Assembly (NCBI GenBank): GCA_003963145.1
Contig: RXJJ01000010.1
Location: 29,558-93,557, forward strand
Direction: 5' to 3'
DNA length: 64,000 nt
Origin: Bradyrhizobiaceae bacterium
Lineage (GTDB): Bacteria > Pseudomonadota > Alphaproteobacteria > Rhizobiales > Xanthobacteraceae
The notes beneath the pieces were generated by a model that ran no database searches, was not told where the DNA came from, and saw only the letters and a program-made list of their open reading frames with translations. The position numbers and the translations under genes were made by a program. Shown piece after piece: positions 60,517-63,046 of this stretch; the first letter of the stretch is position 1; the number at the start of each line of letters is the position of its first letter.

Positions 60517-61059
60517 TCAGATTGACTTGTCCGCTGGCGGCTCGGCCGCAATCAGCTTTTCGAGCCGCGCCTCCTCCTCGGGGGAAAGCCGGAGCAGGGT
60601 TTCATCCCCCGCGTTGCGGGCTCTGCGCCGATAATAGAGCCACAGGCCAAGGCCGCCGCCGAACAGCACAACGGGCGTCAACAGCCATAGCGGCAGCGTG
60701 TATCCCTCGACACGCGGCTTGAGCAGGACGAATTCGCCATAGCGCGCCACCAGAAAATCGATGACCTGCTGATCGCTGTAGCCCGCCGCGATCCGCTCCC
60801 GCACCAGCAGCCGCAGGTCGCGCGCCAGCGGCGCATCCGAATCGTCGATCGACTGGTTCTGGCAGACCATGCAGCGCAATTGCTGCGACAGAGCGCGGGC
60901 ACGGTGCTCCTGCGCCGGGTTGGACATGATCTCGTCGGGCTGCACCGCGCGGGCGGACGAAACAAATATCGTCATTGCGAGGAGCATCGCGACGAAGCAA
61001 TCCAGCAAGCACCGGACTATCCATGGATTGCTTCGCTTCGCTCGCAACGACGGTTTCAT
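60517..61059 (-). CDS. ccmH: Cytochrome c-type biogenesis protein CcmH (CycL)
   Basis: LRCMVCQNQSIDDSDAPLARDLRLLVRERIAAGYSDQQVIDFLVARYGEFVLLKPR; start ATG 61059 with GGAGtagGGGG Shine-Dalgarno-like sequence overlapping the ccmF stop. Confidence 0.92.
   Translation of the reverse strand: MKPSLRAKRSNPWIVRCLLDCFVAMLLAMTIFVSSARAVQPDEIMSNPAQEHRARALSQQLRCMVCQNQSIDDSDAPLARDLRLLVRERIAAGYSDQQVIDFLVARYGEFVLLKPRVEGYTLPLWLLTPVVLFGGGLGLWLYYRRRARNAGDETLLRLSPEEEARLEKLIAAEPPADKSI
60971..61051. repeat. 81-bp REP-like imperfect palindromic repeat inside ccmH
   Basis: GTCATTGCGAGGAGCATCGCGACGAAGCAATCCA ... TGGATTGCTTCGCTTCGCTCGCAACGAC; arms are inverted copies; translates in frame to SLRAKRSNPWIVRCLLDCFVAMLLAMT. 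Confidence 0.85.
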
Positions 61060-61063
61060 CCCC

Positions 61064-63046
61064 CTACTCCGCCGGCTGCAGCATGCGGGCGGTCTTTGCG
61101 GGCTTCGGCGCCCCGACGCGCAACCTGCGATCGGACAGAGAGAGCAAACCGCCAAACGCCATCATCACCGGGCCGAACCAGATCAGCAGCACGAGCGGCT
61201 TGTAATAGACGCGCACGGCGATCGCGCCGTCCGCATTGCTTTCGCCGAGCGAGATATAGACCTGGCTTGCGCCGCGCGTGAGAAGCGCAGCCTCGGTGGT
61301 CGAAGACCCGCGAGCCGGGAAATTGCGTTTCGAGGGCGTCATCGTGCCGACGACTGACCCATCGCGGGACACGGTGAAGCGCGCGACCTGTTCGCGATAG
61401 TTCGGGCCCTGCTGCTGGGAAATGCCGTCGAGCCGCGCGGAATAGGCCCCGACCTGCGCGATATCGCCGGGGCGCATGGTCGCGATCTTCTCGGCGTTCC
61501 ATGTCGATTCGCAAACAATCCCGATCAGCGCGATGCCAAGCCCGGCATGGGCGAACATCGCTCCCCAGCTCGCGCGCGGCAAACCCTTGGCGCGGGCCCA
61601 CGACGTCGCCGGCGGCGCACCAAAGAGATTGATACGCTGGACGATATCGGTCAGCGCGCCGAGAATGACGAAAATCGCGACGCCGATCATCAGCGGCGCC
61701 AGTGCGCTGCCACCGCGCATCCACGCCCAGACGATGGCGAACGAGACCAGCGAAACGATGCCTGCCGCCGTCAGGCGCTGCGAAGCGGCCAGAAGATCGC
61801 CGCGCTTCCACGCCAGCAGGGGGCCGAACGGCACCGCCAGCAGCAGCGGCAGAAACAAAGGCGCGAAGGTGAGATTGAAGAACGGTGCACCGACCGAAAT
61901 CTTGTCGCCGGTCAGAATTTCCAGCGCCAGCGGATAGAGCGTGCCGACCAGCACCGTAGCGCAGGCCGTAGTGAGAAACAGATTGTTCAGCACCAGCGCG
62001 CCTTCGCGCGAGATCGGCGCGAACAGCCCGCCCTGTTTCAGCGTGCCCGCCCGCCATGCATAAAGAGACAGGCCGCCGCCGATGAACACGCAAAGAATGA
62101 GCAGGATGAAGACGCCGCGCGTCGGATCGGTCGCAAAGGCGTGAACCGAGGTGAGAACGCCCGAACGCACCAGAAACGTGCCGAGCAGCGACAGGGAGAA
62201 CGTGAGGATCGCAAGAAGAATGGTCCACACTTTCAGCGCATCGCGCTTTTCCATCACCAGCGCGGAATGCAACAGCGCGGTGCCGGCGAGCCATGGCATC
62301 AGGGAAGCGTTCTCGACGGGATCCCAGAACCACCAGCCGCCCCAGCCAAGTTCGTAATAGGCCCAGTACGATCCCATCGCGATGCCGAGCGTCAGGAATA
62401 TCCACGCCATCAGCGTCCACGGCCGCACCCACCGCGCCCATGCGGCGTCGATGCGGCCTTCGATCAGCGCGGCAATCGCAAACGCAAAGGAAATCGAAAA
62501 GCCGACATAACCGAGATAGAGCATCGGCGGATGCACCGCGAGGCCGATGTCCTGCAATACAGGATTAAGGTCGCGCCCCTCGATCGGCGGATTAGCAATC
62601 CGCAGGAACGGATTCGAGGTCAGGAGAATAAAAAGATAGAACGCGGCCGCGATCCACGCCTGCACTGCAAGAACATGCGCTTTCAGCGACAGCGGCAGAT
62701 TGCTGCCGAAGGCCGCGACCAGCGCGCCGAACAGGCCGAGGATCATCACCCACAATAGCATCGAGCCTTCGTGGTTCCCCCACACGCCGGTGATCTTGTA
62801 GATCAGCGGCTTGAGGGAATGCGAATTCTCGTAAACGTTCACGACCGAAAAATCGGATGTGACGTGCAGCGTCACCAGCGCCGCGAACGACCCCGCGACA
62901 AAAACGAACTGCGCCAATGCCGTCGTGCGCGCGACATTCATCAGGGCGGCATCCTGCACGCGCGCGCCGATGATGGGAACGAACGACTGGATCAGCGCCA
63001 GAGCCAGCGCCAGCACAAGCGCATAATGTCCCGCTTCCGCGATCAT
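61064..63046 (-). CDS. ccmF: Cytochrome c heme lyase CcmF (CycK)
   Basis: [53 protein letters not shown] (WWD motif). Confidence 0.95.

Follow-up and report, generated by a model that had tools for sequence, protein, structure and literature searches.

The CcmH protein encoded in the analysed window (the whole stretch of DNA, 64,000 nt) most probably owes its signal peptide to a dispersed palindromic repeat. We are confident that a REP dimer, read from the usual ccmH start codon, has taken the place of the ancestral signal peptide and would direct the export of CcmH, and that the same happened independently in G015, a distant relative in the genus. In the scenario we propose, a head-to-head dimer of CGTC-tagged REPs would have inserted into ccmH, with codon 3 on one side and the tail of the old hydrophobic core on the other, an event that would have cost about 30 nt net of the old signal sequence. 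Translation would begin at the normal start beside the ccmF stop, the left REP unit would supply the positive n-region and the right unit most of the hydrophobic core, and the surviving residues IFVSSARA would complete the core and provide the cleavage site. The resulting composite peptide would stand in for the ancestral one in exporting CcmH, and a separate event of the same kind would account for G015.

The ccmF-ccmH junction and its REP dimer

The gene ccmH lies on the minus strand (60517-61059; ATG at 61057-61059) and encodes 180 aa, identified as CcmH by the Pfam family PF03918 (E 5e-53) and by the motif LRCxxCQN. The gene upstream, ccmF (61064-63046, minus strand; Pfam PF16327 and PF01578), ends with a TAG codon that was located at 61064-61066 from the sequence and the ORF list, and the ccmH ATG follows 4 nt further on, with GGGG in between. 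This start at 61059 and its distance from the ccmF stop had been given by an earlier reading of the same DNA (the sequence-only reading) and were confirmed in the sequence. The ribosome site which that reading wrote as GGAGtagGGGG needs a minor correction: a Shine-Dalgarno-like GGAG is present within the end of ccmF (61067-61070, minus strand), 7 nt 5' of the ATG, and this GGAG alone makes up the site. A single match to ccmH was found in the host genome (G000). The mature region is under strong purifying selection and the gene is functional (dN 0.051 and dS 0.85 between G000 and its sister G019). On the minus strand, the N-terminus translates as MKP-SLRAKRSNPWIVRCLLDCFVAMLLAMT-IFVSSARA-VQPDEIMSNP.

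The repeat, a REP dimer of the group that we call family A, occupies 60970-61052 on the minus strand, lies in frame as ccmH codons 4-30 and has CGTC at both outer ends, as established by repeat matches and by comparison with published elements (PMC3733652). It had been described as an element of 81 bp or 27 codons; the 27 whole codons (61050-60970) stand, and the full repeat DNA measures 83 nt. Its left unit (CGTCGTTGCGAGCGAAGCGAAGCAATCCA; 61024-61052) encodes SLRAKRSNP, the charged n-region, and its right unit (TGGATTGCTTCGTCGCGATGCTCCTCGCAATGACG; 60970-61004) encodes DCFVAMLLAMT, most of the hydrophobic core; between them lies a 19-nt spacer (61005-61023) that is peculiar to the ccmH copy, all three on the minus strand. 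A search of the 3.86-Mb host genome returned 25 matches at E<=1e-3, 18 of them full length, bearing out the earlier description of a dispersed palindromic repeat. Members of the family share a layout of two inverted units, with CGTC outermost and CCA toward the middle, and a spacer that varies from copy to copy. The outer ends of the ccmH copy, at 61052 and 60970, read CGTC...GACG. Genomic copies read CGTC-ATTGC...GCAAT-CCA, with an A-T pair at the start of the stem and a short CCA tail, and the ccmH left unit differs from them by an A to G exchange at the first stem position. Judged by its letters, the ccmH repeat, with its many dispersed relatives in the host genome, fits a head-to-head dimer of CGTC-tagged REPs as described by Di Nocera et al. 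(PMC3733652). The published CGTC REPs have stems of 8-9 bp and fall into families 1-4 according to loop type (PMC3733652).

Signal peptide, start codon and RNA structure

The predicted signal peptide of CcmH spans 38 codons (MKPSLRAKRSNPWIVRCLLDCFVAMLLAMTIFVSSARA; 60946-61059, minus strand). It was delimited by its hydrophobic core and by a cleavage site assigned through homology with other Afipia CcmH proteins, in which A-x-A precedes VQPDE. No fixed sequence is required of a signal peptide, as long as it offers charge, a run of hydrophobic residues and a motif for cleavage. Of the 38 codons that precede the conserved site (...ARA, then VQPDE), 27 belong to the repeat, and the segment IFVSSARA (60946-60969, minus strand) aligned with the sister G019 and with G015 as the leftover of the old signal peptide, comprising the core end and the cleavage region. 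The peptide shows the features of a Sec signal, namely a net charge of +4 ahead of the core, a core value of 2.73 and A-R-A before V. On the Kyte-Doolittle scale (11 residues), the core with the repeat reached 2.73 in G000 and 2.86 in G015, within the range of relatives with ordinary signals (2.3-3.4); the same window without the repeat gave 0.49 (MKPIFVSSARA, G000) and 0.42 (G015). The repeat-free remnant MKPIFVSSARA lacks a hydrophobic core, and the repeat-bearing peptide resembles those of the relatives. The assignment of the positive n-region to SLRAKRSNP and of most of the h-region to DCFVAMLLAMT, already made in the sequence-only reading, agrees with these values, and we infer that the composite peptide directs export and is cleaved.

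Against this reading stand an n-region of unusual length (about 20 aa) and an Asp directly ahead of the core. One could also suspect a mis-called start: ccmH might begin within the repeat, at TTG codon 18 or ATG codon 25, so that the repeat would be untranslated or would encode a short leader. In-frame internal starts do exist, among them ATG-38 (MLLAMTIFVSSARA) and TTG-45 (LLDCFVAMLL...), and according to Di Nocera et al. (PMC3733652), REPs that appear at the N-terminus of an ORF may mostly be extragenic. We nevertheless regard an internal start as very unlikely. The only in-frame ccmH start with a Shine-Dalgarno match is the ATG at 61059, 5' of the repeat, which is preceded by GGAG; none of the internal starts (TTG-58, TTG-45, ATG-38 and ATG-34, all inside the repeat) has such a match. 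From TTG-45 onward, initiation would remove all positive charge ahead of the core, and G015 has TTG instead of ATG at the ATG-38 position. Moreover, each of the four starts would still employ repeat codons and keep repeat-encoded hydrophobic residues, leaving the signal peptide partly repeat-derived. As only 8 non-repeat codons stand between the repeat and the mature protein, no signal peptide could work without residues encoded by the repeat. An internal start had been raised in the sequence-only reading as an objection to its own proposal, i.e. that the translation is functional and the repeat exapted. The start options, together with the core and the normal signals of relatives, favour the proposal, with export of CcmH as the presumed outcome. 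Most likely, and most simply, the composite peptide represents a tolerated replacement that brings no new property, kept because almost any charged sequence followed by a hydrophobic one is accepted as a signal peptide.

Ten of the 18 full-length genomic copies are open in the ccmH frame, and 2 of the 18, one being ccmH itself, also have a core of at least 2.3, a threshold taken from the range in relatives and applied to few copies. Across both strands and three frames, a signal-like core was reached in 4 of 108 copy-frame combinations, and in 15 of 9000 shuffled sequences read in one frame. These counts lend weak support to the view that repeats of this family come ready-made for use as signal peptides. 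Both ccmH captures belong to the rare signal-like kind, as selection for a working signal peptide predicts, an agreement that supports such selection rather than proving it. Among the copies and pattern matches inspected, ccmH was the only case in the host genome in which a copy was seen to run from a start with a Shine-Dalgarno sequence into a recognisable gene. A pattern of Shine-Dalgarno sequence, ATG and family A repeat, run on 29 genomes, matched in many places; in the subset of matches inspected, it hit two long recognisable genes besides ccmH. One, named by eye as a LivM-like permease (G025, L189), carries the repeat near its N-terminus (MMSPAIPLFVIASEAKQS...), and the other was named, likewise by eye, as an ABC ATPase (G017, L210). 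Neither was counted, since both have plausible downstream starts. At about 1501-1581 of L003, a family A copy lies in frame just 5' of a membrane-protein-like ORF (NMSTAGNLLIAVLLLAANAFFVAAE) and is probably untranslated.

The repeat hairpin is stable (about -49 kcal/mol, z -2.2) and begins no more than 10 nt from the A of the ccmH ATG, where it could lower ccmH translation. The repeat starts 11 nt past the ccmF stop (gap 61053-61063). For E. coli, ribosome stalling and mRNA decay were reported where a REP lies no further than 15 nt from a stop codon (PMC5082802); the spacing at ccmF is as in that report, and the REP might lower ccmF expression. The strong hairpin close to the ATG and the position inside the 15-nt range would both suit the assumption that the repeat is kept as an RNA hairpin tuning ccmF-ccmH translation or mRNA stability, with its coding sense as a by-product. 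We consider this unlikely: a hairpin alone leaves unexplained why both species have an open frame with a signal-like core, a combination offered by 2 of the 18 genomic copies, and CcmH would still need a signal peptide, for which there is no other candidate. A hairpin role and a coding role can coexist.

The second repeat-bearing ccmH

All 29 genomes of the genus sample carry ccmH. Comparison of the ccmF-ccmH junctions, which the sequence-only reading had recommended, revealed that most relatives are repeat-free there and have a normal signal peptide of 21-23 aa, which begins just past the ccmF stop and shares the same end point (AxA before VQPDE). In G015 (JAFKKP010000196.1), a family A repeat is found at the same ccmH codon, in the same frame and with the same length, reading MTPSLRAKRSNPSLQRHLLDCFVALLLAMTILSYPAHA directly before VQPDE. 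Compared with the relatives, G000 and G015 each have 17 additional codons, 27 being gained and about 10 lost (net +51 nt). In the glnE tree, G019 was the partner of G000 (100/99), and G013 and G026 were those of G015 (100/100); the repeat is missing from ccmH in all three sisters. A forced grouping of G000 with G015 was rejected (p 5e-13), and on the tree the repeat trait needs two changes. When the two ccmH genes are compared, the repeat arms are identical at 61 of 63 positions (97%), compared with 39% for the six spacer codons and 69% for the mature region (arms versus mature gene, Fisher p 2e-7), and the arms show a dS of 0.07, the mature part one of 0.65. The arms are thus younger than the split between G000 and G015, and spacers so unlike each other suggest that different copies served as sources. 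Taken together, the identities of arms, spacers and mature genes are best read as two independent captures of a family A repeat.

G000 and G015 agree exactly in insertion point, frame, spacer length (19 nt) and net gain (+51 nt), and this might instead reflect one insertion, either moved between the two lineages by recombination or kept from an ancestor. We hold this to be quite unlikely, given spacers so much less alike than the arms and given that flanks and mature genes group with each host's own clade; common descent would in addition demand losses that restored normal signal peptides in many lineages. Homogenisation of the arms by recombination with other copies is possible, yet it would leave the spacer difference unexplained. 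Repeats are also a usual cause of misjoins, and the G015 contig ends shortly upstream, within ccmF. An assembly error or a decayed gene is nonetheless extremely improbable: in G000, ccmH sits inside a 93.5-kb contig of a 99.8% complete genome, its mature region is under purifying selection, and the independent assembly of G015 has the same architecture, with clade-appropriate flanks on both sides. The second genome thereby makes the local error against which the sequence-only reading had cautioned unlikely. The two captures are the only family A cases detected: the junction pattern (repeat arm, then VQPDE) matched G000 and G015 alone among 399 genomes of the family, and no further repeat-bearing ccmH was found in an order sample of 298 genomes. 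A looser pattern at order level gave two chance matches, which are not ccmH by sequence.

Other repeats at the junction and known systems

Elsewhere in the genus and the family, palindromic repeats of the unrelated families B, C and D were found at the same junction. Family C (CGTCCCCGCG..., translated as SPRKRGP...YGSPLSRGR) is present in G018 and G007 and, together with family B, in G022; the junction of G009 resembles the family C case, judged from its translation. Family C is multicopy, with 49-81 matches in these four genomes. In all four loci L040, L047, L049 and L080, family C follows the ccmH start, and no stop interrupts the frame from the repeat, over its full length, into CcmH; G022 (L049) has family B stacked behind it. 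G018 and L080 have no downstream ATG, so that translation likely runs through the right arm at least. The hydrophobic core of these two is native, and the repeat is likely translated as an extension only. Family B (PHPNPLP), likewise multicopy, contains an ATG with a ribosome site inside the element in G002. Some of the junction repeats are probably translated as N-terminal extensions. Family D (CTCATCCTGAGGAG...) lies 5' of a new ccmH ATG in L084, L096 and L097 (Bradyrhizobium and relatives), where its end reads as a ribosome-site-like AGGAG, AGGA or GAGG 5-8 nt before the ATG. A strict search of the L084 genome returned one other copy only of family D, which we presume to be an abundant repeat. 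In L112 (Tardiphaga), the CcmH motif lies 385 nt past the ccmF stop, and no repeat was recognised in the interval.

Within the genus, the presence of any repeat at the junction requires at least 6 changes on the glnE tree; the ccmE-ccmF junction, taken as a control for repeat density, was usable in few loci. We tentatively suggest, at somewhat less than even confidence, that the ccmH start is a recurrent landing site for selfish palindromic repeats from several unrelated families, which on capture become coding or translation-start sequence, the signal peptide and start region being repeatedly rebuilt in the genus and the family. The sequence-only reading of the ccmH repeat in G000 held; capture on at least two occasions and the other repeat families at the junction lie beyond its scope.

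Selfish DNA seems to have been reused more than once as a working protein part. The case offers a clean and testable example of selfish non-coding DNA that a conserved protein has come to need; it includes a natural replicate, an ancestral signal known from sister species and a c-type cytochrome phenotype that is easily assayed. It also carries a warning for annotation: SLRAKRSNP...LLAMT is usually, and rightly, ignored as a translated repeat, and trimming it in ccmH would delete a real N-terminus. A literature search for the peptide SLRAKRSNP gave no match.

CGTC REPs are known from Bradyrhizobium and Rickettsia (Di Nocera et al. 2013, PMC3733652), and the ccmH element shares with them the CGTC end tags, the CCA tails, the head-to-head dimers, the occurrence in Alphaproteobacteria and the many copies. 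That survey described intragenic copies encoding 20-30 aa and took most N-terminal copies as probably extragenic; unlike those, the copy in ccmH very probably has a coding role and would form a required part of the protein. Rickettsia palindromic elements, as far as the review account goes (Ogata et al. 2000, reviewed in PMC2229807), also lie in frame within conserved genes whose products are still functional. They are presented there as tolerated inserts, whereas the ccmH insert appears to replace a functional segment. In Yersinia, an RU-2/YPAL repeat lies within the predicted signal peptide of YPO1552 (Delihas 2007, PMC2759123). YPO1552 is a putative exported protein of one lineage; CcmH, in contrast, is a conserved core protein with a known ancestral signal, and the repeat was apparently captured in two lineages. 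What is new, as read from these genomes, is a conserved core gene whose signal peptide has apparently been replaced by a repeat, and this twice.
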